Below, in pieces: positions 80-28,081 of a stretch of DNA of 28,081 bases. Each line of letters starts with the position of its first letter. Within the stretch, counting starts at the first letter, position 1. The position numbers and the translations under genes are program-made. Under the pieces are notes generated by a model that saw only the letters and a list, made by a program, of their open reading frames with translations, was not told the DNA's origin and made no database searches. Source of the DNA: a virus; the IMG/VR virus record IMGVR_UViG_3300006802_000416, positions 1 through 28,081 of that record; one strand, 5' to 3'.

Positions 80-85
80 TATAAT
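80..85 (+). promoter_or_regulatory. Possible -10 box (TATAAT)
   Basis: A consensus TATAAT ends 8 nt before the ATG at 94. No acceptable -35 hexamer sits 16-18 nt upstream, and there is no TGn extension. If used, transcription would begin almost at the start codon and give a nearly leaderless mRNA. This is weak evidence, because the hexamer could be chance in an AT-rich stretch. Confidence 0.2.
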
Positions 86-93
86 GGCAGGCG

Positions 94-909
94 ATGAATG
101 AGCTGGCTCTTTTCGCGGGCGCTGGTGGAGGAATTCTCACAGGGCAAATCCTTGGATGGAGAACAGTATGCGCCGTTGAAAGCCACAGGTATGCCGCCAG
201 CGTTCTTGCTCGCAGACAAAACGAAGGGCATCTGGAGCCCTTTCCGATTTGGGATGACGTATGTACGTTTGACGGAAAGCCTTGGAAAGGAATTGTTGAT
301 GTGGTTTCTGGAGGGTTTCCCTGTCAAGACATCTCCCTTGCAGGAAGCGGAGACGGAATCGAAGGAGCAAAGTCAGGACTCTGGGTGGAAATGGCAAGAA
401 TCGTTGGTGAAGTACGACCCAAGTACGTCTTCGTGGAAAACTCGCCAGCACTTGCTACTAGGGGGCTTGGAAGAGTTCTCGGAGACTTGGCCTTACTGGG
501 GTACGATGCGGAGTGGGGAGTCATGGGGGCGCACCATTCCGGCGCACCTCACAAAAGAAACAGGATCTGGATTCTTGGTGCCGACACCTCAGTCACGAGA
601 CTGGGCAGACACAACAGCGTCTCAGGGGAAAAGGAAAAGCATAAACCTAGGCACTTGGGCAAAAAGATACCCGACTTTAGCAGCATCCGAGACAAAGCAA
701 AAAAAGAACCCGCACAATCAGAAGAGGGAAACGTCGCCATGCGAAGTTGGTGGGACACTGAACCCGAATTGGGTCGAGTGGCTAATGGGGTGGCCCGTAG
801 GATGGACAGGCTGCGAACCATTGGAAACGGACAAGTACCAATCGTGGCTGCAACAATTTTCAAAACACTCTTAAAAAGAATTACTTCCAGAAATCGTGGT
901 AGCAAGTGA
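94..909 (+). CDS. C5 cytosine-specific DNA methyltransferase (Dcm-like)
   Basis: This 271-aa protein should transfer a methyl group from S-adenosylmethionine to C5 of cytosine. Motif I (FAGAGGG, 7-13) binds the cofactor. Motif IV GGFPCQDIS carries the catalytic Cys77, motif VI is VFVENSP (113-118), motif VIII is HKRNRIWIL (153-161), and motifs IX/X appear as EPELGRVANGV (223-233) and GNGQVP (244-249). Only about 60 residues separate motifs VIII and IX, so the target-recognition region is short or absent compared with classical enzymes. No restriction enzyme is visible beside it, which suggests an orphan phage enzyme for evading host restriction. The ribosome site is weak (GGCAGG, 86-91). A second gene is read in the +1 frame over almost the whole length. 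Confidence 0.93.
   Translation: MNELALFAGAGGGILTGQILGWRTVCAVESHRYAASVLARRQNEGHLEPFPIWDDVCTFDGKPWKGIVDVVSGGFPCQDISLAGSGDGIEGAKSGLWVEMARIVGEVRPKYVFVENSPALATRGLGRVLGDLALLGYDAEWGVMGAHHSGAPHKRNRIWILGADTSVTRLGRHNSVSGEKEKHKPRHLGKKIPDFSSIRDKAKKEPAQSEEGNVAMRSWWDTEPELGRVANGVARRMDRLRTIGNGQVPIVAATIFKTLLKRITSRNRGSK
98..874 (+). CDS. Overprinted gene inside the methyltransferase gene (+1 frame), Trp-rich conserved phage protein
   Basis: A complete 258-aa frame starts 4 nt after the methyltransferase start (ATGAATG) and ends 35 nt before its stop. The product begins MSWLFSRALVEEFS and is tryptophan-rich. Landmarks are LVKYDPSTSSWKT (103-115), WPYWGTMRSGESW (131-143), VPTPQSRDW (161-169) and LNPNWVEWLMGWPVGWT (221-237). 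From memory, these match a widespread phage/bacterial family often annotated as hypothetical or as a methyltransferase. The LNPNWVEWLMGWP patch is encoded by the same bases as EPELGRVANGVA of the methyltransferase. I know of no demonstrated function; a partner or specificity subunit of the enzyme is a guess. The alternative is a frame kept open by methyltransferase conservation without being translated. Confidence 0.7.
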   Translation: MSWLFSRALVEEFSQGKSLDGEQYAPLKATGMPPAFLLADKTKGIWSPFRFGMTYVRLTESLGKELLMWFLEGFPVKTSPLQEAETESKEQSQDSGWKWQESLVKYDPSTSSWKTRQHLLLGGLEEFSETWPYWGTMRSGESWGRTIPAHLTKETGSGFLVPTPQSRDWADTTASQGKRKSINLGTWAKRYPTLAASETKQKKNPHNQKRETSPCEVGGTLNPNWVEWLMGWPVGWTGCEPLETDKYQSWLQQFSKHS

Positions 910-5054: not shown

Positions 5055-8000
5055 CTATTCGTTTGCTTTTTCCATAAGTAGGATAAATTCTTCTTCAGTC
5101 AAATTTCCCATAATATGTTCTAAAAATATATTGTTAATTATCATATCAAGCTCTCTTGCAGCAATTACCTTTAAAGAACCGGAATCTTCTTTTGTCGATT
5201 CCCGAAGTTTGTCTGACGTGATTCTTGCTTTAGCTGCAACATCAATGAATTCTTTATAAGTTTTTTCATCAATGCCTTGAGCCTTAGCAATCTCAGCTAC
5301 ATTGATTGCTGCTGTTGTTTGAGCCTTTAGATCTGAAGCCGTTTCTGTATCAATCAAAGAAGATGTAACCAAGCTTCTTATTGATGATGGAGCAATATTA
5401 AAACCAAGAAGAGGTCTTGCAAGTGGACCAGATGACCCTTCTCCGGTGACAGCACCCTTAAGATTAACAGAGCTTGTAAAAAATGTTGGTGTTACCATTT
5501 TTACAATTTCATCTCCTAGCTGCCCAATTCCACTTGTTTGAGACTCTTTTCTCATCCAATCTCTCAAGAGCTTTACTGTTCTAGTGTACTCTCTACTGTC
5601 TTCTCCATACTTTAAGGCTAACTTTTCAAGATTTTTTGAAATAGCTTGGTTTTGTTGGTCCCTCATTTTTTGAGTATTGTATACATTAAATGAAGTCATA
5701 ATTGATTTAAGTGGACCACCAATTGTTTTTGAGAATCCTTCAAGGATGCTCCAAGCGTCAGCTTCTTTTCCTTCTCCAAGTGGGCGTGTTGTTCTTGCAA
5801 CTTGTTTTAAATCAATTGCCGATGGGACAAGAGAAGTCGCAGAACCAGTAAAAACTCCAGACACTTTGCCTTCCAATGGAAGCGATTGTCCTCCGTACTC
5901 GTTTGGTTTGGCTTGATCAACACCCTCATATGGAAACAAAAGCAGTGTAGGATCTCTAAATATAGACCTGTATTCTTGAGCAGTCATCTCAAGATCTAAC
6001 ATGGCTTCAAGTGTAGTGTCATTTGCTCTAGCAAGAAGACTACCAAGGTAAGATCTTTTTGTATTTTGAGTTAACATTCTTGCATAAAGATTCATACCGT
6101 TTGCAGTATATCCAACAAAAGGCATACCCAGCACACCACCACTTAACTGATACCTGAATGTATTTAAAAAACTAGAAACATCAAAGTAATCCACAAAAAC
6201 GTCTTCTGCGATTGACGTAGCATGTCTTACAGAAAGGTTGTACTCTTCCATAAGCTGCAATATGTAGCCACCTTTAAGCTTTTCATCTACATAAGAATAA
6301 CCTTTAAGAAGTCTATTAAAAGAACCTTCTCTAAATTTAGATAAAGCTCCACCTAACTGCTCAAATCCTGTTGGATCAGAAAGAGTATAGGACGGAACAG
6401 CCCTTGGGTCTGTTTCCGTTTTCATTGTTCGCAGAAACGCATTAAGCTCGTCATCAAACCCTTCCAGATTCAAAGCACTTGCAATTCTTTGAATATCACC
6501 AAGAGAGTCAGCAGTAAGAGAATCGATTTCCTCCATGATTCTATTGTTTTTCTTGAAGTATTTGTAAAGAAGATCAGAAAAAGCATCATGGCCGGCAGCA
6601 ATATTAAACTCAACTCTTCTTGTAGAAAGCTCAATACCAGCATTTACAATACTTTCTACTCTTGGATTTAATGGCTGCTCTCCCTTCTCCATTCTTTTTA
6701 TGTCATCCATAAACTGAAGAATGTATTTTGGCTTTGAAATAACAGGGCCAGCCCCATACCCATGAAACGTAATAGAGCTAATTGCATTTCTTGTATAAGC
6801 ACCACCAACCGGATCAATTATTTTTGCAAGCTTAAACAACTGAAGTCCTTGTTGCATGAACTCATTTGAGAGCAAAGAAAGCCCAGCTTGTTTTGAAAGA
6901 AAGCTGCCCATTGGTTTGCTAATATGGAAACCATCCATTGTTGATCCAAACATTGGAGCGGTTGCAGCTTCAACAACAGGGGAGCTTTCGTTAAGACTAG
7001 CTCCTTTTGGCTTAAACACTCCTCTGGATATTGTTGAAGGTGTTCTTGGTCTTACATTTCCAACAGGCATAAAGCTTCGCGCAACATCAGGACGAGACAC
7101 TTTTAATGCTTTTAACTCTGAGTCAGTTATAAGTTGCCCGGAGTTTCTCAAGAAGTTCCACGTTCTGTTAATGTCTATTGCTTGCTGTATAGTTTCGTAT
7201 GTTTTGTAAATTGAGAATTTGTAGTTAGCGTGAGCTTCAAGTCTTTCCCTTGGTGTAAGGCTGTCTGCTGAAGCATTCTTGTGAAAGAATCTTTCTTCTG
7301 GTGATATAACCCTAGAGAAGAGACGTTGAGACTCAGCATCAGACATATTCATGACCTCATCCCAAACCTTGGTAATATCGTTACCATGCTTAGCAAGACG
7401 CTCTTTTCCATCAGGGACAAGGTACAGCAGCTTTCTTTGGAGAAGCTGCTGCTTTTCAGCAAGCTCAGGGCCAGTAAGATTATTTAGTCTCATCTCTTCG
7501 AGATTAGCTTTAATTACTCTAAGGATGCCCTCGTTTGTTTGGTATGTTGAGAAGTACCCAATAGTTCTCTCAAGAAAGCTACCCGGCTCAAATGTTATTT
7601 GAGGTGCAGTGGTTGGAGGAGGAATATAATCCTTTCCGTACTGTAGTCTTGCTGCAAGCCCATCGTCATTAAGAACTATGAATTTTGTGTTTCCGCTGGC
7701 AAGCAAAACATTTTCATTTGATTGAACGATCTCTTCTGCTGCGCGTATTTCATTTTCAGTCGCGCCAGATTTCCTTAGAGCCTCTAATTCTTTCTCCGCG
7801 GCTTCCCGAGAGAGCCGCGCTTCAGCATTGTTTAGCTCAAGCATTAAGGCTTCTGCTTTTGCTGCGCCTAACTTGTCTCCACTAAAGTCTTTATGAACAG
7901 TGTACTTCTGACCAACACTAGATTCTGTGACTTTCACAACAATCTTTTTGGGTGCAGGTGATCCTTCAAGAAGGATACGCCGAGAGTCCTGTCCTGTTAG

Positions 8001-11000
8001 AAGTTGAGCAATAAGGTTAAAGAGTTTTTCCTGCGCAGGTCTAATGTGATTCTGAGCAATAGCAAAAACAGCTTTCTGGTAATCTGTCATTTCAGAGACA
8101 GGAATCTTTGGATAAAACCTAAAGTCTCCAACCCCTTCGTATTGCTCTTTGTTAGAGATATACTTTGTGTCTTCAAAAACTTCTTCTATTGGAAGATATG
8201 TTTTCTCTTCTGACGTAAGTTGAAATCTTCTTTTATCAAGCTCTTCTAAAAGTTCTGTTTTTCTTTTAAGAAATCTGGGGTCATCAGGAAGTTTATCAAG
8301 CATTCTAGTCAGCTTGTCTATTTCTGATTTCAAGAATTGAGTTGCATCTATCTCAATACCCATTAGCTGTGACGGAACTGTGCCGTCTAAAAGCGGCACA
8401 TCCATGCTTGAGTGTATGTTAACAAATGTTTTATCAAGGTCAGACTTTGGAATGGTTACGTTTTTGTATCCTTGTTCTGCGCCTCTTCCAAAAGCCTCTA
8501 TAATTTCTTCTTCTGCAACAACAAAATCTTTTGAAAACTCAGGCAACTCATCAAGGACTTTTGCAAGCTCTCTTTTGGAGAGATTTGATTGATGAGCTAT
8601 TTCTCTAGTAATTCTATACGAATCTCCAACCTCAAGGGATGGCTTAACCAAAGACTGCAAAAGCAGTCCTAGACGCGTGTCTTCCTTTCCCGTAGCGTAA
8701 TGGTACCGCATTGCTTCAGCAACGCCTTCACGGTACCAATTCGGGATGTTCACAGCAGCAAATGGGGCATTCATAAACTCAAACGCACCTAGCGCTGTAT
8801 AGTAAAACTTATCGCTTTTTACTTTGGAATCTTTTGCCCTATCGAAAAGACGCATTGGCCTATTACCAAATATGCCTTTCCCGAGGGTTCTTATGATCGG
8901 CTGTCCTGCGCTGGAGTATTCATAGAAGTTGCTAAATTTTGCAGAAGAAGGAACAACCGTAGAGTTTTTAAACCCAACCCATGTTCCATCATGGTCAACA
9001 ACGTGCTCCATTTGATTTGATGATTGCTTTCTAGAAAGGGCTACCTTTTGATCGCGTACATTCCTTCCTCTGGCAGCAAACTTCTCAAGCTCTGCATCTG
9101 TAATATTAAGGCCAGCATATGCGCCAACATCAGAAGAACCACTTGATGCTAGGTATTCAGCAATAACAATTGAGTCCTGCCTGTCTGTGACAAAGGCAGG
9201 ACTTTTCTTTGTTGTTTCAGACAGGATTGTTTCAGGGGCATCTTTGAGAATTTCTTCAATTGCTTTTGACCTTGTTGTTTTTGAATTTTCCCAAGAAAAT
9301 CTTTTTGCTCTGGACATAAAGTCTAAGATCTGAGCACTTGTCTTAGGCATATCACTTCGAGCATTTGTAACAAGAACAGAATATATTCTGGGGTCTGTAA
9401 CGCCCTTCTCCATCAAAAGGTTTGCAGTAAAGTATGCGTTTTCGTATGGGTCAAAATTGTAAGCTTTGCCCAGCTCATCAAGCCGCTTCCCGTAAGTTGC
9501 CATGTCTTCGGCTTTTTGCTCTGGATTTGAACGATAAAGCTCATTAAGGTTTCTTAAGGCTTTTTCAGATTCTATGTCATACTGAGTCTTTCTGTTTCTA
9601 TATGCTACTTTGTTAGATTGATTAGGTGTTAAAGGTTTTCCTTTTGGAATGCTTTTATCTAAGAATTTATTTCTTTCTTTTTCTATCAAGAAGTTTCTCC
9701 ACTCATTCAAAGTAGAAAAAGCATTCTCTTTCATCTTGGTTACGCCGGGGACACCGCCGTTTGACCATGCTTTGTTTTCAAAAGTTTCCCTTACTTTCCC
9801 CTCATCAATAAGCACCTTATTGTTTTTAGTGTCTGCTCTGACTGGAACAAACGTTTTATTGTTGCCAGATTTAAGACCGCTAACTTCTTCCAAAGGTATT
9901 GACTTGTCCCGCTTTGACTCCCACTCAGATATTCTTTTTGCTTCTTTAGATACAGTTGCTGGAGGTGTTGGTCCAGATGGCTCATCTGCAAAACGAAGAA
10001 CCATCCCATCTTTTGTTGTGTACCCTTCATCATATTCTTTTCTTGCGACTGAGGCATACTCTTCGTGAGCCTTTGCTTGTTTCTCTAGGGTAGACGCCTC
10101 TTCTGTGCTAGATACTTTTTTAGCCTGTTCTCTTAGCTTAAATGCTTCTTTTTCATTATATACAATGGTTGCCTGTGTTTGGTCTTTTTTAATCGCCGTT
10201 ACTGGAGCGTCAGATGTATGAATATCAGCAGAAGTCACAGGCGTTTCTTCCGGAATCATTTTAATTGCTTCTATTCTTTTTATCTCTTTTGCTACTTCTT
10301 TTCGAATAAGAGAAAAAAGTTTTACTTCATTCCCAGCGGCAGCTTCAGTGGCTGCCGCTGCTAAGGCATTGCGGATACCTCTTGCTGATGTCGTACCTAG
10401 CGTTGCTGTTTTTCCAACAATGCTAGTAAACAAAGCAGCGTCAAGAGCTGAGTAAACAGGGTGCTGTGTCCATTTTTTAGTAAACCTTTCTATGCCTTCT
10501 TCAGACTGATCAAAGACTATTCTGACGCTATCAAGCATATCTTCAACGATAACATCTAAAGAAATTGCTTCAGAAAGATTTGAAATGTATTCTTCTGTTG
10601 CGTTTCTAAATTCAGGCGTATTTTTGTTTGAAAAGATTGATATTGAAGTAGCTGCGGCTGTGGCTGTAGCGCCATTCTTAGACCAAACATTTCCAAATGC
10701 TCCAGCTTTTGCTGCATTTAGATTTGAATCAAAAACTTTTTTGTCATAGTAATCTTTAGACAGTCTCTTAAAGCTATCCCCAGAAACTTCTTTGCCGCCA
10801 GTTACTTTTTCCCAATTGCTACGCATTCGGGAAAAGTTTTTCCCAAAAGCTTGTTCGCCAGTTAATCCTTTTAACCTTGGATCTCGACCTTCTTCTTTCT
10901 TTGATTCAAGAAAGTTTTGATACTCTATTGCATCAGATATTTCATTGGAAAGAGATTCTCCAACTGGCTTTCCGTATTTGTTTAGAATTGGCTCTATGAC

Positions 11001-12443
11001 TTCTTTTTGGATTTTTTCATCAAAGTCAGTAAAGACATCACTCCCCGGCCTTGCAAACGCAAGATTAATTGCGCGTTCTACACGCTTTTTAATTTGCATT
11101 TCTTGTTCAGGGGTTATAAACGCTGGTTCTTTTCCACCGTACAGTAGTTTTACAATTCCTTTCTTTATGCTTTCTTTGTTATCTCTTAAGCCTTTAATAT
11201 ATGATGGAAGCTCCCCAGCGGTATATTTTGAGCCTTCATAAAGATCGTCTGATCTTTGGCCTCTCAAAGAAAGCTCTTCAAAAGATTGGACGGTTGAGGC
11301 CCCAGAAAGCGTAGAAGGGTCTTCAAAGTATGCAAGAATGTTTGCGCCTGTTTCAAACGGCTCTTCTGATGATGATGGCCTATAATTACTCAGATCACTG
11401 GTTAACCTAATTGTTTTAGCAGCATTGTCTTCTTTTGAGATTTGTTCGCCAGCAAGAGTTGTTTGCCTTGGGACTCCAAAGCCAGTGCTTCCAGCAGTTG
11501 TGTAAGCAAGACTTCCGGCAATAGCAACAGGAGCCAAAACAATACCAGCAACATCGGAAAGAGCATTAACGATTACATCGTTTGACTTTGACGCATCTCT
11601 TAACAGATCTTCAGGTTTAAACTGTTTTGATATGTCATATCTGATATTTAGGTTTTCCCTAATTTCCTGTTTTAATAAGTTGTCTAGGTCTTTTGTTTCA
11701 AGCAAGAATGCTTGATCAACATACTCTTTTGGAGAAACATAGTATGTACTTTCAAACCCGTAGTCTCCAATTCCAGCCTGTTCTAAAACCTCTTCTCCGA
11801 TTCCTTGGACGCTAACACTTCTTGTTCCTTCTCTGTTTGTTTTTTTGTTTAACTCAAACTTTTCACGGTAAGGTCTAGAGTCATTTGGGTAAAAAGCTTC
11901 GTCAGCCAACGATTGGACATATAGGTCTATAAGTCTTTGTTTGTCTTGCCCCTTGGCATACTGGATCGCCAAAAGAAGTTCATTACGAAGGTAAGAGGAA
12001 GATGTTTCTTTTGGTTGAGAAGGTGTTACTTTCTCGTCTTGAACAACAAATTTGGTTTGCCCAACAGGAGCATCAAGCATTGCATCTGCTTCAAGAGGGT
12101 CAATGCTTACGTCACCAATGGGTGGTGTCTGCAAAGGCTCTACAGGGGTAGATGCGACCGTGCTTCCGTAGCCAGTGTATTGGTACCCTTCTGGCGTTTC
12201 TGTGTACCCGTATTCTCCTAGATCTAATGGTGCAGGCGGCTCCTCTGGAGAGGCCGCCTGCTGTAACAACAATCCACTAGAGTCAAGCCAAGATGAAAAT
12301 GAATTGTCATTTTGTTCTGGTGTTTCTATGGGTAGCTCTTCATTGGCAACTGTTGTTGTTGAAGATGTTGGCGCGTCTCCAGAAAGAATCCCTGAATTGC
12401 TAAGCCAACTGCTAAAAGAATTATCTTGGTTTTTTTCTGCCAT
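5055..12443 (-). CDS. Giant 2462-aa virion-associated protein (candidate internal/ejected protein)
   Basis: At 7.4 kb this is a quarter of the window. The first 60 residues carry a 14-residue motif twice (7-20 and 46-59). A Pro/acidic linker follows, then long helical, charged regions with patches such as AAAATEAAAG and a Lys/Glu-rich stretch. The last quarter contains GAYTRNAISSITFHG, VFVDYFDVSSF and GVLGMPFVGYTANG. These recall the C-terminal parts of very large phage 'polyvalent' proteins, from memory and weakly. I find no T7/N4 polymerase, lysozyme or protease motif by eye. Size and position after the 515- and 674-aa genes fit a podovirus protein ejected with DNA. The 14-nt leader has no Shine-Dalgarno, so translation may depend on the upstream gene. 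Confidence 0.75.
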   Translation of the reverse strand: MAEKNQDNSFSSWLSNSGILSGDAPTSSTTTVANEELPIETPEQNDNSFSSWLDSSGLLLQQAASPEEPPAPLDLGEYGYTETPEGYQYTGYGSTVASTPVEPLQTPPIGDVSIDPLEADAMLDAPVGQTKFVVQDEKVTPSQPKETSSSYLRNELLLAIQYAKGQDKQRLIDLYVQSLADEAFYPNDSRPYREKFELNKKTNREGTRSVSVQGIGEEVLEQAGIGDYGFESTYYVSPKEYVDQAFLLETKDLDNLLKQEIRENLNIRYDISKQFKPEDLLRDASKSNDVIVNALSDVAGIVLAPVAIAGSLAYTTAGSTGFGVPRQTTLAGEQISKEDNAAKTIRLTSDLSNYRPSSSEEPFETGANILAYFEDPSTLSGASTVQSFEELSLRGQRSDDLYEGSKYTAGELPSYIKGLRDNKESIKKGIVKLLYGGKEPAFITPEQEMQIKKRVERAINLAFARPGSDVFTDFDEKIQKEVIEPILNKYGKPVGESLSNEISDAIEYQNFLESKKEEGRDPRLKGLTGEQAFGKNFSRMRSNWEKVTGGKEVSGDSFKRLSKDYYDKKVFDSNLNAAKAGAFGNVWSKNGATATAAATSISIFSNKNTPEFRNATEEYISNLSEAISLDVIVEDMLDSVRIVFDQSEEGIERFTKKWTQHPVYSALDAALFTSIVGKTATLGTTSARGIRNALAAAATEAAAGNEVKLFSLIRKEVAKEIKRIEAIKMIPEETPVTSADIHTSDAPVTAIKKDQTQATIVYNEKEAFKLREQAKKVSSTEEASTLEKQAKAHEEYASVARKEYDEGYTTKDGMVLRFADEPSGPTPPATVSKEAKRISEWESKRDKSIPLEEVSGLKSGNNKTFVPVRADTKNNKVLIDEGKVRETFENKAWSNGGVPGVTKMKENAFSTLNEWRNFLIEKERNKFLDKSIPKGKPLTPNQSNKVAYRNRKTQYDIESEKALRNLNELYRSNPEQKAEDMATYGKRLDELGKAYNFDPYENAYFTANLLMEKGVTDPRIYSVLVTNARSDMPKTSAQILDFMSRAKRFSWENSKTTRSKAIEEILKDAPETILSETTKKSPAFVTDRQDSIVIAEYLASSGSSDVGAYAGLNITDAELEKFAARGRNVRDQKVALSRKQSSNQMEHVVDHDGTWVGFKNSTVVPSSAKFSNFYEYSSAGQPIIRTLGKGIFGNRPMRLFDRAKDSKVKSDKFYYTALGAFEFMNAPFAAVNIPNWYREGVAEAMRYHYATGKEDTRLGLLLQSLVKPSLEVGDSYRITREIAHQSNLSKRELAKVLDELPEFSKDFVVAEEEIIEAFGRGAEQGYKNVTIPKSDLDKTFVNIHSSMDVPLLDGTVPSQLMGIEIDATQFLKSEIDKLTRMLDKLPDDPRFLKRKTELLEELDKRRFQLTSEEKTYLPIEEVFEDTKYISNKEQYEGVGDFRFYPKIPVSEMTDYQKAVFAIAQNHIRPAQEKLFNLIAQLLTGQDSRRILLEGSPAPKKIVVKVTESSVGQKYTVHKDFSGDKLGAAKAEALMLELNNAEARLSREAAEKELEALRKSGATENEIRAAEEIVQSNENVLLASGNTKFIVLNDDGLAARLQYGKDYIPPPTTAPQITFEPGSFLERTIGYFSTYQTNEGILRVIKANLEEMRLNNLTGPELAEKQQLLQRKLLYLVPDGKERLAKHGNDITKVWDEVMNMSDAESQRLFSRVISPEERFFHKNASADSLTPRERLEAHANYKFSIYKTYETIQQAIDINRTWNFLRNSGQLITDSELKALKVSRPDVARSFMPVGNVRPRTPSTISRGVFKPKGASLNESSPVVEAATAPMFGSTMDGFHISKPMGSFLSKQAGLSLLSNEFMQQGLQLFKLAKIIDPVGGAYTRNAISSITFHGYGAGPVISKPKYILQFMDDIKRMEKGEQPLNPRVESIVNAGIELSTRRVEFNIAAGHDAFSDLLYKYFKKNNRIMEEIDSLTADSLGDIQRIASALNLEGFDDELNAFLRTMKTETDPRAVPSYTLSDPTGFEQLGGALSKFREGSFNRLLKGYSYVDEKLKGGYILQLMEEYNLSVRHATSIAEDVFVDYFDVSSFLNTFRYQLSGGVLGMPFVGYTANGMNLYARMLTQNTKRSYLGSLLARANDTTLEAMLDLEMTAQEYRSIFRDPTLLLFPYEGVDQAKPNEYGGQSLPLEGKVSGVFTGSATSLVPSAIDLKQVARTTRPLGEGKEADAWSILEGFSKTIGGPLKSIMTSFNVYNTQKMRDQQNQAISKNLEKLALKYGEDSREYTRTVKLLRDWMRKESQTSGIGQLGDEIVKMVTPTFFTSSVNLKGAVTGEGSSGPLARPLLGFNIAPSSIRSLVTSSLIDTETASDLKAQTTAAINVAEIAKAQGIDEKTYKEFIDVAAKARITSDKLRESTKEDSGSLKVIAARELDMIINNIFLEHIMGNLTEEEFILLMEKANE
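5474..5506. repeat. Intragenic hairpin, 11 bp with one bulge
   Basis: TTGTAAAAAATG (5474-5485) pairs with CATTTTTACAA (5496-5506), leaving one A bulged, with a 10-nt loop. It lies in the 3' part of the giant gene. Confidence 0.5.
7425..7451. repeat. Intragenic hairpin, 9-bp perfect stem (11 bp with one bulge)
   Basis: CAGCAGCTT (7425-7433) pairs with AAGCTGCTG (7443-7451). Two more inner pairs are possible around one bulged T. It lies in the giant gene. Confidence 0.65.
9173..9203. repeat. Intragenic hairpin, 10-bp perfect stem, 11-nt loop
   Basis: AGTCCTGCCT (9173-9182) pairs with AGGCAGGACT (9194-9203) in the giant gene. The plus strand continues TTT after the second arm, antisense to the gene. 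Confidence 0.7.
10334..10360. repeat. Intragenic hairpin, 10-bp perfect stem, 7-nt loop
   Basis: CAGCGGCAGC (10334-10343) pairs with GCTGCCGCTG (10351-10360). It encodes part of the Ala-rich stretch of the giant protein, so repeated Ala codons may contribute to it. Confidence 0.65.
12232..12261. repeat. Intragenic hairpin, 9-bp perfect stem, 12-nt loop
   Basis: GCAGGCGGC (12232-12240) pairs with GCCGCCTGC (12253-12261). CCTC/GAGG inside the loop can extend the helix. It lies near the start of the giant gene, just after the second copy of the duplicated peptide. Confidence 0.65.
12267..12308 (-). repeat. Second copy of duplicated 14-residue peptide in the giant protein
   Basis: Residues 46-59 read DNSFSSWLDSSGLL. 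This matches residues 7-20 (DNSFSSWLSNSGIL, 12384-12425) at 11 of 14 positions; the three differences are S/D, N/S and I/L. The copies are 25 residues apart in a Pro/Thr/Glu-rich, probably flexible N-terminus. Confidence 0.8.
12384..12425 (-). repeat. First copy of duplicated 14-residue peptide in the giant protein
   Basis: Residues 7-20 read DNSFSSWLSNSGIL. The aromatic/aliphatic core (F-SSWL---G-L) in a disordered tail looks like a short docking motif for another virion protein. Confidence 0.8.
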
Positions 12444-21187: not shown

Positions 21188-22549
21188 TTAGGTAAAGATC
21201 AACCCGGTTGGTACCCGAATATCTTCTTCACGTCCTTGGCATCGTGGGTTTTCACACACAAGCTCAAACTCGTTGTACGCATATGCTTGGAAAGCAAAGG
21301 TACCCGGAATCTGCTTGAAGATAGAACCTGTTGAGGTATCCCAACCGTAATCTCCCAGCTTCACCCGCTTCATCGAGCTTCGGTCCATGATGGTGTAGCT
21401 GTTCATTGGGGCAGAACGTGCTGTTTCCCAAGGAATCTGCTTTGCACCGTACTGGTAAGCGATTGTGGTGTGTCCCTTAAGAGCCTTAAGGTCAGTCTGC
21501 ATATATACAGGATCAATCTCTTGCAGGTAAACCTGAAGCAAAGAACTGTGTGAGAAGATCACTGGATCCATTTCATCAACAGCTTTTGGCCCCAACTCTC
21601 CCATACGCATCAGCAAGCTGGTAATACGGAAGTGGTTGAAGTCACGAAGTGTGTTGTTGTTACGGACAATGAATGACTGCCAAGTGGGAGCCAATGAACG
21701 GTCAATACCATGATATGTCCCGGTATCGTTAATCGCGTCATAAAGACCTGTGATTACATTCCCGTACTCGTTTCCGTTAGCATCACCTTCAACAACAAAG
21801 CGATTTGCTACACCTGCTGGCAAGTCAACATCAAGGTCAAATGTTTGGTTTGTTTGGTCAACCGCAGTAATCACACCACTTGTGCCAGAATTAGCTGTCA
21901 ACTCAGCAGCAGTACCAACTTGAACCTGCATACCAACACGAAGGAATCGGGCACCAGCATATGCACTCATGTATGATTTAGCGTTGCCAGCATAACCTGT
22001 AGCACATTCTCGCTGATTAACCGTAATTGGGTTCCCAGATGTTACTGCCCCAGTTCCGGGAACAATGCAAAGAATACCAGCATTTGCATTTGCTCCACCA
22101 ATTGCACCAGCAGATCCATCCCAGTACTTAGGCCCGACTCGGTTACGGTGGGAATCCTTTGCGTCAGATACAAGCTCTTCCATGATCTGGCGGTACATGC
22201 CGGGACGTTCGTGAGCACGAATCAACTTGGGTCCAGTAATCTCCACAATGTCCATGTGTGGGAACAACTTGACAGTTGATTCTGTGTATCCCGGAGGATT
22301 GTACTTGGGAAGAACAGGTGCAGCAGCACCGGGCCCACCAGATACAAAACGGCTACCACTACCCTCAGAAGTCTTGTAGAGGTAGTACTGGGAATCTCCA
22401 CCATTCCAATCTTCTTGGTTAATGGAGTCAATCCACTTCTCAACGTCATCAACGCTATCGAGAAGCTTGATAATCACATCTGCGTAAGTGTACTGAAACA
22501 GCTCACTAAACGCTCCAAACGCACTTTGTGGGTTTTTACTAAACGCCAT
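21188..22549 (-). CDS. Major capsid protein
   Basis: This 453-aa protein is in the expected place, after the portal and a scaffold-like gene. It shows GLYDAINDTGTYHGIDRS near residue 275, a helical stretch (DFNHFRITSLLMRMGELG), FSHSSLLQVYLQEID, then IPWETARSAPMNSYTIMD. This is the order expected for an HK97-fold capsid protein, with the spine helix and P-domain strands late in the chain. An insertion-like Gly/Ala-rich, strand-rich region (about 150-250) may be an extra surface domain. The start has AGGAGA 6-7 nt upstream. I see no hairpin of 8 bp or more in the gene, unlike its neighbours. No protease gene is visible, so the protein is probably not cleaved by a phage protease encoded here. 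Confidence 0.85.
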   Translation of the reverse strand: MAFSKNPQSAFGAFSELFQYTYADVIIKLLDSVDDVEKWIDSINQEDWNGGDSQYYLYKTSEGSGSRFVSGGPGAAAPVLPKYNPPGYTESTVKLFPHMDIVEITGPKLIRAHERPGMYRQIMEELVSDAKDSHRNRVGPKYWDGSAGAIGGANANAGILCIVPGTGAVTSGNPITVNQRECATGYAGNAKSYMSAYAGARFLRVGMQVQVGTAAELTANSGTSGVITAVDQTNQTFDLDVDLPAGVANRFVVEGDANGNEYGNVITGLYDAINDTGTYHGIDRSLAPTWQSFIVRNNNTLRDFNHFRITSLLMRMGELGPKAVDEMDPVIFSHSSLLQVYLQEIDPVYMQTDLKALKGHTTIAYQYGAKQIPWETARSAPMNSYTIMDRSSMKRVKLGDYGWDTSTGSIFKQIPGTFAFQAYAYNEFELVCENPRCQGREEDIRVPTGLIFT

Positions 22550-23267: not shown

Positions 23268-25349
23268 TTAGTTTGGCGCATTACCCTTTACGCCTAGTTC
23301 ACCTGTAAACCCTGAAGCAACTGCGGGAGTCATAGCGGCTCCCTTTTGATCACCGCCCAATAGGGCAGCAATGTCTGGTACGCCTCCGGCTCCTTCTGGA
23401 GAGCCGGGAGGCATTGGCATTGGCGCTTGGTTTGGAGCAATAGCAGATTGATGCTGTTGAAGCAGCGCTTCAAGTCTTTGCTGTTCTTGAGGAGAGTATT
23501 CCAAGAAGAACTTTGGATCTCTCATTGCTTCCAATAAAACGCCAATGTGTTTCTGATGGTCCATCCAAGGTCTAAAGAAAGGCTCTTGGCCGGATTTGAT
23601 TCTGATAATGTTTATGTTTGCTACGGCTTTGTCTCCCGGCTCTTCAACATCTGTAAGTCGTGCAGCAACAGGAGCGCCGAGCAAAAGTTCTACAATAGCA
23701 TCATTTCTTGGATTGCTTTCCTGAAGCATACCATTTGATGCAAGTTGCATAATTGCTGTTCGTATTTGATTTGGATACGAGACAGCGGCAGATCCGGGTA
23801 CCATCCTAACCTGAAGTAGGTTGAATGGAGTGCCATCGTACTCGTATACTGCTGCCTGCTGGTCACTCCCCATTAGTGCAAAGGTATAGCCAATTGGAAG
23901 GTAGTCTTGGCAAAGTCGTACAAGATGGGTCGCCTGATGAGCTTGCGAAGCTTCAATCTCTTGAACTGTAGGAGCCATTGCAATTTGGTTTTCTTGCAAT
24001 AGTCGATCAAGAAACGCTCCACTGTCACCTCTAGCGGGAGCAGATCCACCTACAGGAGAAGCGGTAAGGCTCAAGGACTCCAGATCTGCCATCGCATCCT
24101 GCCTCATTTGGTAGAGATGCGGTGCAATCTGAGGAGGAACCATAAAGGAGGGCTTCTCTTCACCGTAGGGAACGTACTCGTATATTTCACCGGGGCGACC
24201 CTGAAAGTTGTTGTCGCTAGAACCGTGTGGCTTTAGCAAAGGTGGATCAGCAGTACGCTCTGCTGCCCGAATTTCAATTTGCTCTACAAGGTCAAGCCTC
24301 TTCTGGGCTTGACGAAGGACATCTACAACGCAAAGCCCCCAGCCTCTGTCCGTAAATTGGCGATCTCGGTAGGTTGTGTGCGGGTAATCGTTGTATGGCA
24401 AGCCATCAACAAGCTTGATTACTTGATCTCCTGTATAAATACACCTAAAACCAGACTTATAATTGATACCAAGAGACTTTGAGCTAATTGGGGCGTGGTA
24501 AAAGTCCCAAACTTCTACCATTGGTTGCGCTACGTCGCTATAAGTCTCCCGAAGTCCAAAAGTTTGATCTACTTCTCTAAAAAGAAACGCATCTTCAGGC
24601 TCATAGCTCTTAGAAATCTTAGACATATCAACTTCAGGAAAGTAAATTTCCATCAAATCGTAAGGAATAAGCTTTCTTTCTGCGTAATTCATGCACTGAT
24701 CTACAGTCAGATGCCTCCAATGTGGGTCTGGAAAGAAATTAAATGGATGCACAGACCGGATTCTAGGGAGTCCGGTCTGGTATGAGACGGTTTTAAGAGT
24801 CACTTCTTGACGAAATGGTTCGTCAAAAAGATTTGGCATCCCTTCTTCGTCTGTTTGTGGGATTTCTAGCGTTGAATACTCTGGGTTTCCGTCTGAATAA
24901 GAGATCTCTTCGACAACTTCTCCAGAATTTAGATCCCATTGCGTTGCCCAAATGCCATTGCCAAACACCATCATGTTCATCATTGCAGCATGGTTAGCGT
25001 AAACCGTTTCTTTACGTTCCCAAAAATGAAGAATTAAGCTGTTGGCAACAAGCGCTTTCTTTCTTGCGTCACGGTCGTTAGTACCGGGGACGCATTCAGG
25101 CATCATGCGCGGAGAAATAAGCTTAGCATGGTACTTTCTAAGCTTATCCATAACCTGCGGATTGCTTGTTTGCCCACCGCCCATGTTAATGGGTCGCTGA
25201 GTGCGGGGATCATACTCAACATTTGTATAGCCAGCAGCAAACGCAGCATTCTCATACCACCTATATTCCAATGGCTTACGAGCGTCTTTGTTTCTTTTGA
25301 CGCACTTTTTAACGTAATCAAGAACAGCCTGTTCGTTATTTTTAGCCAT
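23268..25349 (-). CDS. Portal protein (P22-like podovirus type)
   Basis: The 693-aa protein should form the dodecameric portal for DNA entry. Features recalled for the family: an N-terminal helical region with Arg/Lys/Tyr (RNKDARKPLEYRWYENAAFA), VHPFNFFPDPHWRHLTVDQC in the wing, DYPHTTYRDRQFTDRGWGLC before the long helices, then LRQAQKRLDLVEQIEIRAAE, the clip/stem region, and a Gln/Pro/Met-rich C-terminal tail. The start overlaps the upstream stop by 1 nt (TAATG) without a clear ribosome site, so translation is probably coupled. Three hairpins lie within (23382-23412, 24291-24313, 24752-24779). Confidence 0.88.
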   Translation of the reverse strand: MAKNNEQAVLDYVKKCVKRNKDARKPLEYRWYENAAFAAGYTNVEYDPRTQRPINMGGGQTSNPQVMDKLRKYHAKLISPRMMPECVPGTNDRDARKKALVANSLILHFWERKETVYANHAAMMNMMVFGNGIWATQWDLNSGEVVEEISYSDGNPEYSTLEIPQTDEEGMPNLFDEPFRQEVTLKTVSYQTGLPRIRSVHPFNFFPDPHWRHLTVDQCMNYAERKLIPYDLMEIYFPEVDMSKISKSYEPEDAFLFREVDQTFGLRETYSDVAQPMVEVWDFYHAPISSKSLGINYKSGFRCIYTGDQVIKLVDGLPYNDYPHTTYRDRQFTDRGWGLCVVDVLRQAQKRLDLVEQIEIRAAERTADPPLLKPHGSSDNNFQGRPGEIYEYVPYGEEKPSFMVPPQIAPHLYQMRQDAMADLESLSLTASPVGGSAPARGDSGAFLDRLLQENQIAMAPTVQEIEASQAHQATHLVRLCQDYLPIGYTFALMGSDQQAAVYEYDGTPFNLLQVRMVPGSAAVSYPNQIRTAIMQLASNGMLQESNPRNDAIVELLLGAPVAARLTDVEEPGDKAVANINIIRIKSGQEPFFRPWMDHQKHIGVLLEAMRDPKFFLEYSPQEQQRLEALLQQHQSAIAPNQAPMPMPPGSPEGAGGVPDIAALLGGDQKGAAMTPAVASGFTGELGVKGNAPN
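23382..23412. repeat. Intragenic hairpin, 11 bp with one bulge, 8-nt loop
   Basis: GCCTCCGGCTC (23382-23392) pairs with GAGCCGGGAGGC (23401-23412), leaving one G bulged. It lies in the 3' part of the portal gene. Confidence 0.6.
24291..24313. repeat. Intragenic hairpin, 8-bp perfect stem, 7-nt loop
   Basis: GTCAAGCC (24291-24298) pairs with GGCTTGAC (24306-24313), in the portal gene. Confidence 0.55.
24752..24779. repeat. Intragenic hairpin, 9-bp perfect stem, 10-nt loop
   Basis: CAGACCGGA (24752-24760) pairs with TCCGGTCTG (24771-24779), in the portal gene. Confidence 0.65.
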
Positions 25350-25855: not shown

Positions 25856-26329
25856 CTAGTAAAATCTTGGGGTAGTCATGTAAGCCATATTGTTTTGCTG
25901 TTGCGGAGCAAATCCTTGGCCATTATATGAGCTAAGATTGTGATACATTTGCGGAGGCTGCGGAGAATATGCCTGCTGTTGTGGCATATATTGTGGTGAC
26001 ATCTGCTGACCACCACCAAATCTAGCTTGTGCTTGCTGCAAAACTCCGATTGTTTTTGGTGCCATTGACATAGGCATCTTGCCAGTCTGACGAGGAGGTG
26101 GCGCTGTCATTCTTTGAGATGGCAGCGAAGATTGCCGCATTTGAGGAGATGGCAGTCCTTGAGGAGCCATTGGCTGCTGCATGGGATCTTGGGCCATTTC
26201 TTCATCCACCCCACCAGACATAATTAGATCATAAAGTCTTTTACCAAGACTGTTAATGTCTTCGCTGGTATACCCAGAAGCCCCGCCCATTGACTGATTA
26301 TTCTGAATCATAACTACCTCTGTAGCCAA
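25856..26329 (-). CDS. Low-complexity Met/Gln/Pro-rich protein, 157 aa
   Basis: After a short helical N-terminal part (about 20-45, SEDINSLGKRLYDLIMSGG) the protein is Gln-, Pro- and Met-rich and probably disordered (MQQPMAPQGLPSPQMRQSS and similar). It overlaps the terminase stop by 16 nt. No catalytic motif is visible. The composition is shared with the C-terminal tail of the portal and the N-terminus of the 515-aa protein, so these phage proteins may share a disordered, interaction-prone style. The function is unknown. Confidence 0.6.
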   Translation of the reverse strand: MATEVVMIQNNQSMGGASGYTSEDINSLGKRLYDLIMSGGVDEEMAQDPMQQPMAPQGLPSPQMRQSSLPSQRMTAPPPRQTGKMPMSMAPKTIGVLQQAQARFGGGQQMSPQYMPQQQAYSPQPPQMYHNLSSYNGQGFAPQQQNNMAYMTTPRFY

Positions 26330-28081
26330 AAGTTTAACATTGAATTTGTATTTAAACTTTTATTTCTTCTGCTATTTGCCTTAACGGTCGCCCTAAGATC
26401 ATCAAAAGTCAAGACTTTAGGTTGTGCCGCTTCTATTGTTTTTCGACACTTTAAGCACACACTCCCAGCAACCACTAAGTGTTCGCATTCTTTTTTTTCT
26501 TCAACAGGCTGATACATGGCAGTGCCCATGTAGGGCAACTGCCTGCTTGCATAGATTCCAAGGACCAAGCAGGTGACTTCATCATCATGATAACGCTCGC
26601 CAGTAATTGGGTCGGTTCCATCCATAGCCTCCGGCAACATTTTAGAACTTTTCTTAACAAAAACTTCAAGCTCTCTTAGTGTATTTTGGTTTTTAACAAT
26701 ACACATCCCCTGCTTAAAAAAAGCAGTAGCTGCGCTTACAGCTTCTGATTTACTACGGCCAGTCATTCTCCAACCTAAATACTTAGTCGGAGAATCGCCC
26801 TGTATGTTGTCCATGTTCTTTCTTCGGAAGATTCTATGGAGTGGGTAACAAGATCTAAAAAGAGCCAATGCTGCTGCACCGCAAGAGTTAACTTCAGGTA
26901 TCTGCCAAGCCATATTGTAGTAAGCTCCCAAAGCAATTGCTTCAGATGCAGACTCCTCCGGGTAACACTTCTCCCTAAAATGCGCTACCTGAGTAAGTTG
27001 CTCGCCACGTTTGTAAACATGGATAACATTGTAGTCGCACTGGGCGCTTTGTCCTTCAGCATAGTCTGAAGAAACAATGTATTCTTCTCCCGGTATAGGC
27101 TCTTCGTATATCTTAATCGGCCCAAAGCTTTCCGGGACAAAAGTAAACATACCCTGCGAGACTGCATGAGTCTCGCGGTTGACCTGCCCCATCATTGCTT
27201 CAGAGTCTGGCTCCAAGGCCCTTCTGCCTGTATGCGTAATCAACTCTCCGCGAATAGGAGGCTGTTCTTCTTTCATCCTATCTGACTGAGTAGAAACCTG
27301 ACTCATGTCAAAAATGGTAAGCGTAGAAGACATAAATGCTTCACGCCAATGAGTTGGGTACTGGTTCTTGAATATAGCTGACTTACCATCGCAGCGATCT
27401 TGGATAGCCCAGCGTCTCCACTCAATCCAGCCCATAGGGTCTAGCTTGTCTGCTTCAGACTCTTTGTTCCATCGAGGCACGATATGGTTTGTTAAAAGGT
27501 CAAACTCATCATCGTCTAGATTCAACAATGAAGTGTAGCGCTCAAGGCCATGCGAATCCTTTCTCGCATGGCACTGCAACCAATCATAAAAAAGATCTGA
27601 GTTCTCCTGCGTTGGCTCTTGCCAGCACTGCTGCTCATCATCAAGCCAAGAAATAAACAAAGGTTCAAATTCAGACCTGCCCGCAACAGCCTCTTCCCAG
27701 AGACGAGAGTATGAATCCCCACGGCTTTCAGCAGTGGTATCAATGACAATAGCCCCGGTGTTCTTACGAACAGTAGGAAACATCTCTTTAATTATTGTGC
27801 TTTGATTACGGTACTTTGCAAACTCAGACAGAAGAAGGTACTGGATTGTAGCACCCGTTCTTGCAAGCGGTGTACGTTCAGTGAAGATAGAAATGGTAGA
27901 GTTCAAGCCAGAGTCTGGCTTAACTCCCCCCTTTTCCCATAGCAAGATCTCTTCTTCAGGTATGTCCCGCCTAAATTCCACAGGCTCTTTAAACGACCTT
28001 GAGCGTCCCCAACGCTCAGGGCGAAGGGACGCAGGGTAATTGCTGTAGAAGATATGGTTCCGTTTGTGGATCTCAGAAGCC
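26314..28081 (-). CDS. Large terminase subunit (5' end cut by the window edge)
   Basis: The frame stays open to base 28081, so the Walker A motif lies outside the window; 588 residues are visible. Positions below are within this visible part. A Walker B-type strand ends in Ser-Glu (YLLLSEFA, Glu about 86), then TTAESRGDSYSRLW. The C-terminal RuvC-like nuclease shows Asp at 339 (SSDYAEG), Glu at 396 (PEVNSCG) and the Asp pair near 499-500 (YHDDEV). The enzyme is the ATP-driven packaging motor and cuts concatemers. A C-terminal C-x-H-x7-C-x2-C cluster (CEH...CLKC, 532-545) looks like a small zinc ribbon. No small terminase is seen; it is probably upstream. Confidence 0.9.
   Translation of the reverse strand, partial: ASEIHKRNHIFYSNYPASLRPERWGRSRSFKEPVEFRRDIPEEEILLWEKGGVKPDSGLNSTISIFTERTPLARTGATIQYLLLSEFAKYRNQSTIIKEMFPTVRKNTGAIVIDTTAESRGDSYSRLWEEAVAGRSEFEPLFISWLDDEQQCWQEPTQENSDLFYDWLQCHARKDSHGLERYTSLLNLDDDEFDLLTNHIVPRWNKESEADKLDPMGWIEWRRWAIQDRCDGKSAIFKNQYPTHWREAFMSSTLTIFDMSQVSTQSDRMKEEQPPIRGELITHTGRRALEPDSEAMMGQVNRETHAVSQGMFTFVPESFGPIKIYEEPIPGEEYIVSSDYAEGQSAQCDYNVIHVYKRGEQLTQVAHFREKCYPEESASEAIALGAYYNMAWQIPEVNSCGAAALALFRSCYPLHRIFRRKNMDNIQGDSPTKYLGWRMTGRSKSEAVSAATAFFKQGMCIVKNQNTLRELEVFVKKSSKMLPEAMDGTDPITGERYHDDEVTCLVLGIYASRQLPYMGTAMYQPVEEKKECEHLVVAGSVCLKCRKTIEAAQPKVLTFDDLRATVKANSRRNKSLNTNSMLNFWLQR
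27156..27176. repeat. Intragenic hairpin, 8-bp perfect stem, 5-nt loop
   Basis: GCGAGACT (27156-27163) pairs with AGTCTCGC (27169-27176), in the terminase gene. Confidence 0.6.
27547..27572. repeat. Intragenic hairpin, 9-bp perfect stem, 8-nt loop
   Basis: GCCATGCGA (27547-27555) pairs with TCGCATGGC (27564-27572), in the terminase gene. Confidence 0.65.

Follow-up and report, generated by a model that had tools for sequence, protein, structure and literature searches.

How can one stretch of viral DNA keep two long reading frames open at once, and what does such a pair of frames encode? The window analyzed here, meaning the whole stretch of DNA, is a complete IMG/VR virus record of 28,081 bases whose plus strand carries the frame alpha (94..909, 271 aa, starting with ATG) and, in +1, the frame beta (98..874, 258 aa, also starting with ATG), which begins 4 nt after alpha and lies wholly within the alpha coding region. 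A preliminary description had pointed out these two frames with shared bases, and we find both of them open at exactly these coordinates. Judging from sequence analyses, we consider it very likely that the two frames specify the two subunits of a C5-cytosine DNA methyltransferase with a motif split like that of M.EcoHK31I and with almost complete overprinting of its two genes.

Viral relatives were gathered by alpha sequence alone and blind to the beta frame. All 77 distinct homologues obtained in this way carry beta in +1 and 76 of them keep it open over the entire match, while in the remaining one a stop interrupts beta 5 codons before the match ends. Synonymous-codon shuffling, which preserves the alpha protein and its codon usage, predicts 344 beta-frame stops across 73 non-redundant genes compared to the 1 that is observed, and the third bases of conserved four-fold alpha codons in these genes reach a uniformity of 0.71 versus 0.42+-0.004 in shuffles, with the limitation that the sequences are related and that neither stop nor constraint counts are independent events. 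Across alpha residues 224-242, four-fold third bases are even 0.97-1.0 fixed. For the alpha gene of the window alone, synonymous shuffles have a mean of 6.8 beta-frame stops with P(none) = 0.0001; in 2,000 such shuffles, no open beta run exceeds 214 codons, compared to the 258 observed. On the protein level, beta residues M1, S2, W3, and S6 are conserved at 98-100%. The preliminary description had proposed that both frames are conserved genes and had named frequent +1 stops among close methyltransferase homologues or a lack of purifying selection as observations that would speak against it; the counts given above bear out the proposal, and neither of these observations was made.

A frame that is open merely by chance is ruled out by the stop counts, the four-fold constraint, the shuffles of the window's own gene, and a flip in codon-position pattern described below. 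It could also be argued that methyltransferase codon usage keeps the +1 frame open as a side effect and that annotated proteins with the sequence LNPxWVEWLMGWP are mistranslations, given that both motifs are read off the same bases and that long chance open frames are frequent in high-GC genes (e.g., L173 and L176). However, the stop counts, synonymous-site constraint, and codon-position flip, together with a fixed AAT codon and the Shine-Dalgarno placement at the gene starts, imply selection on beta and leave this reading with next to no probability. As far as sequence evolution can tell, both alpha and beta are coding frames under selection, with an effect size that excludes chance. Searches with beta lead to the same loci, as all 234 distinct beta-found loci also match alpha, with beta in +1 at 233 loci and a frameshift at the remaining one (L249), and no stand-alone beta gene is found among these 234. 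The earlier idea that proteins with the LNPxWVEWLMGWPxGWT signature form a stand-alone family is thus not upheld by these loci.

To see which frame is constrained where, codon-position differences were counted in 188 unique dual genes forming 15,579 related pairs (not independent), with position 1 of alpha codons being position 3 of beta codons. In the catalytic part, alpha positions 1/2/3 differ at rates of 0.193/0.114/0.413, which is the ordinary alpha pattern. Between motifs VIII and IX, the rates at beta positions 1/2/3 are 0.149/0.134/0.362 (0.362/0.149/0.134 in alpha order), so the free position is the third of beta and protein-level constraint in this region acts on beta alone. Over motifs IX-X, rates of 0.206/0.091/0.184 at alpha positions 1/2/3 indicate that both frames are held. 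An OLGenie-like count for the region between motifs VIII and IX is in agreement, with a beta dN/dS of 0.22-0.29 and an alpha dNN/dSN of about 1 or more at short distance, albeit from 3-7 pairs only. In the window itself, this variable region spans 580..755 (+) and shows constraint in the beta frame (TP motifs) and none in the alpha frame; it is followed by a dual-coded block (755..808, +) in which motif IX of beta (GGTLNPNWVEWLMGWPVGWT) stands above EPELGRVANGVARRMD of alpha. Because the substitutions between motifs VIII and IX follow beta codons, the specificity region is assigned to beta, and it is there that the target-recognition region most likely sits.

Alpha has the features of a catalytic subunit, with motifs I-VIII in residues 1-165, motif X around residues 239-259, and no motif IX. 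It matches phrog_363 (PHROGs, E 5e-63) and, over residues 4-199 only, the C5-methyltransferase family PF00145 (Pfam, E 3e-30), of which it carries motif I (AdoMet), the Pro-Cys of motif IV, an ENV-like motif VI, and motif VIII, but the Pfam match stops at residue 199 without a motif IX in the same chain. G-F-P-C77, E115-N116, and R155/R157 are invariant over 92 alpha sequences. Alignments are similarly truncated, as alpha aligns in sequence only to residues 15-169 of M.HhaI and to single-chain actinophage methyltransferases only over motifs I-VIII (residues 5-163; hhalign 99.9%). The fold of an AF2 model of alpha matches M.HhaI (Foldseek, E 9e-10), with a confident motif X helix and pLDDT <50 over residues 173-244, so that the part of alpha between motifs VIII and IX is predicted to be a disordered linker.

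The motif missing from alpha sits in beta: by sequence comparison, the signature LNPxWVEWLMGWPxGWT is motif IX of C5-methyltransferases. Its relative LNPxFVEWMMGLPxGWV is found in 564 phage records, nearly all of them actinophages, in frame just upstream of the motif X sequence GNGVVPQQA. Alignment of the beta C-terminus with motif IX of five single-chain methyltransferases covers exactly the signature stretch (hhalign 93%, E 3e-7), and HMMER sets the motif IX segment of beta on residues 272-307 of M.HhaI (RKLHPRECARVMGYPDSYK...GNSVV) as a weak, secondary, collinear stretch. Since beta has motif IX and alpha aligns only over motifs I-VIII, both frames together would make up one complete C5-methyltransferase. 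Of the initial view that two unrelated genes share this DNA, the conservation of both stands, but with motif IX in beta the evidence speaks for two parts of one enzyme. Several relatives divide the motifs differently: in L244 (Spirochaetia), L252 (Paraburkholderia), and L253 (a Guaymas archaeon), alpha ends just past motif VIII and beta extends over the TP repeats and both remaining motifs, IX and X. In L202 and L210, alpha likewise stops directly after motif VIII, and beta is intact. In a beta frame from Spirochaetales (L239:3001-3732), motif IX is degenerate (ISHTETIQGWLRGWT).

PHROGs assigns beta to phrog_1008, which is filed as "DNA methyltransferase", plus small unknown families, but there is no match in Pfam (full alignment), NCBIfam, or PADLOC and no significant sequence relative in the PDB, so that beta as a domain of known fold was rejected. 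A hidden HNH homing endonuclease of the ShiLan type was rejected as well, with no match found and beta being no insert. Single-chain enzymes lack anything corresponding to the approximately 60 N-terminal residues of beta (MSWLxSxALVEE...). An AF2 model of beta alone is poor (pLDDT 58.6, pTM 0.26), which hints weakly at a piece that needs a partner for folding. It is conceivable that beta, although a genuine overprinted gene, serves a function outside the enzyme, e.g., as a regulator, inhibitor, or anti-restriction protein, and the lack of database matches and of any known relative of its N-terminal third would be in line with this. Yet such a function seems improbable considering the location of motif IX, the presence of motif X in beta of L244, L252, and L253 as well, and the constraint on the usual target-recognition region in beta only.

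Both frames of the proposed two-subunit enzyme start within the tandem sequence ATGAATG (94..100, +), with the alpha ATG at 94, the beta ATG at 98, and a TGA at 95-97 that ends the frame just ahead of the beta ATG. Upstream lies a Shine-Dalgarno-like AGG (84..93, +; the window reads ATGGCAGGCG ATGAATG) that is common to both starts and comprises 3 nt only in the window. Shine-Dalgarno elements of at least 4 nt are found in 130 of 187 relatives at a median of 4 nt before the alpha start and 8 nt before the beta ATG. Beta begins with ATG in 185 of 188 relatives, while the alpha start codon is ATG in only 110 of 188 and otherwise GTG, TTG, or a non-start codon, and where it is the latter, alpha must begin elsewhere. 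At codon 2 of alpha, 182 of the 188 unique relatives use AAT, while asparagine codons elsewhere in these relatives are AAC 1023 times and AAT 633 times. This geometry of starts and Shine-Dalgarno elements fits separate initiation, with beta if anything favored, although it is anatomy and no proof of translation. We infer that beta would be translated separately, bind alpha, set the recognized sequence, and be needed for methylation.

Programmed frameshifting could instead fuse the catalytic half of alpha to the segment of beta with the target-recognition domain and motif IX, resulting in one long enzyme. Single-chain phage methyltransferases with motifs I-VIII, TRD-like repeats, motif IX, and motif X do exist (L174), but the conserved ATG of beta with its own Shine-Dalgarno spacing of 8 nt argues against this scenario, and so does the N-terminal half of beta, which stays open and conserved ahead of every position at which a shift would be useful. 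Moreover, motif X is back in frame 0 and two shifts would be required in most members of the family, and we consider frameshifting improbable. We therefore return to the reading as two subunits. In this mechanism, one ribosome-binding site at ATGAATG would start both proteins, alpha (frame 0) would bind AdoMet and supply catalytic motifs I-VIII and X, beta (frame +1) would supply motif IX and, in all likelihood, the target-recognition domain, and the two probably assemble into one active enzyme.

The preliminary description had left open whether such an overlap has been described before, and a precedent does exist for the motif split. M.EcoHK31I (YGGCCR; Lee, Kam & Shaw 1995, Nucleic Acids Res 23:103, as described in PMC3404938) is a two-polypeptide C5-methyltransferase whose large subunit has motifs I-VIII and X and whose small subunit has motif IX, and its target-recognition domain is predicted in the large subunit. 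Alpha and beta of the window share this distribution of motifs, but the constrained region between motifs VIII and IX lies in beta, unlike the target-recognition domain of M.EcoHK31I. The gene for the small subunit of M.EcoHK31I is reportedly located inside the large one in another frame, and its large subunit is presumably 309 aa long like alpha of L270, which is no evidence of identity. The alpha/beta pair would then resemble M.EcoHK31I also in the overlap of its small-subunit gene with the large one, which is +1 and family-wide here. Further differences are the near-complete overprinting and the presence in a phage, and the likeness is one of motif split; an enterobacterial search for the M.EcoHK31I sequence gave the same layout in prophages and nothing bearing that name. 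A general description of the alpha/beta overlap was not found in the literature searched, which covered few restriction-modification papers. In our best reading of the sequences, three features would be new compared to M.EcoHK31I: how common the arrangement is, the placement of the recognition region in beta, and the tandem arrangement of the starts.

Other systems share single aspects of this organization. M.AquI (CYCGRG) is a split C5-methyltransferase with motifs I-VIII in alpha and IX-X in beta (PMC3404938), which is the division seen in L244, L252, and L253 but differs from the window, where motif X is in alpha. Single-chain actinophage C5-methyltransferases like Arthrobacter phage MidnightRain gp84 and Mycobacterium phage Wachhund gp69 share motifs I-VIII of alpha and motif IX of beta but differ in having IX and X in the same chain as I-VIII and in retaining the +1 beta frame only partially. 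L172-L176, which are single-chain with motifs IX and X in frame, still have a beta-like core (TWPxSGxMRxG and LPTP repeats) in +1, for which a simple motif split does not account; the open run in these GC-rich genes is mostly within chance; in L174, LPTP repeats are found in the methyltransferase frame. ShiLan has an out-of-frame HNH insert in phage methylases (PMC11855218) and resembles the window in hiding a second frame within a phage methyltransferase gene, but this frame is an inserted homing endonuclease, whereas beta of the window is neither an insert nor a nuclease.

Frames of the beta type overlapping methyltransferases are found at 80 loci in bacterial and archaeal genomes, on plasmids of Leptospira, Acinetobacter, and Methanomethylovorans, and in phages of many hosts. 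They also accompany more diverged methyltransferases, namely those of mycobacteriophages SG4, Nitzel, and Rhynn, a Bacteroides phage, Pseudomonas phage Marin, Stenotrophomonas phages, and enterobacterial prophages, with open-run P = 0.000-0.010 across this whole set. In the GC-rich MoxS-R1, L172-L174, and L176, the open beta run is within chance. The enterobacterial form (L270, L271, L280, L305, and L306) differs at the N-terminus of alpha, and its beta contains LNPxxSxWLMGxPxxW. We lean towards the view that these loci form an ancient and very common class of dual-coded C5-methyltransferases in phages, bacteria, and archaea in which a +1 subunit supplies motif IX and the target-recognition domain, so that catalysis and specificity would be tied at the nucleotide level, and which has been missed by one-frame annotation.

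The suspicion that databases annotate one frame or the other proved correct for the 12 GenBank/RefSeq loci compared (frame offsets derived from coordinates), of which 9 have alpha only (L081, L084, L292, L293, L294, L296, L297, L298, and L299), 3 have beta only, and none has both. The latter 3 are Virus Rctr197k (L302), phage phPA-G (L082), and Vibrio phage 1.291.O (L295), where beta is called a hypothetical protein and looks stand-alone because the alpha frame was left uncalled. In E. coli NZ_CP041110.1 (L305:3444-4658), alpha is open throughout its 404 codons, and RefSeq lists two incomplete pseudogene pieces with a gap at the variable region, in which constraint acts on beta only; in other E. 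coli prophages, two methyltransferase features lie beneath one match. The methylase of Mycobacterium phage Llama (L168:1932-2691) is annotated as two genes, and the open frames swap there from the N-terminal half of beta into the frame of the C-terminal half of alpha, as after a small indel, which is common to several related phages.

In the window, nearly all likely genes are on the minus strand, including terminase-, portal-, and capsid-like genes (26314-27981, 23268-25349, and 21188-22549), a single ORF of 2,462 aa that probably encodes a large virion protein (5055-12443), and, near the alpha/beta pair, a small HNH-endonuclease-like protein (1312-1608; phrog_1035 and phrog_589). The exceptions are alpha/beta and an ORF at 922-1263. 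The GC content of the pair is 0.52 compared to 0.44 for the window, and the contrast in strand and GC may point to a recent gain. No restriction enzyme was recognized in the 28,081-base window, and the phage would probably use the methyltransferase to methylate its own DNA as protection from host restriction.

If our interpretation is true, it would account for the many annotated phage C5-methyltransferases in which a recognition domain and motif IX seem to be missing and for the repeated appearance of "hypothetical proteins" that contain LNPxWVEWLMGWP. It would also be a warning that cloning the annotated frame alone, recoded or codon-optimized, may yield an inactive enzyme and that an intact gene can be annotated as a pseudogene, as in E. 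coli L305. Beyond this, alpha and beta would represent a clear case of an overprinted and functionally coupled gene pair, with hundreds of natural variants for studying the evolution of overlaps.
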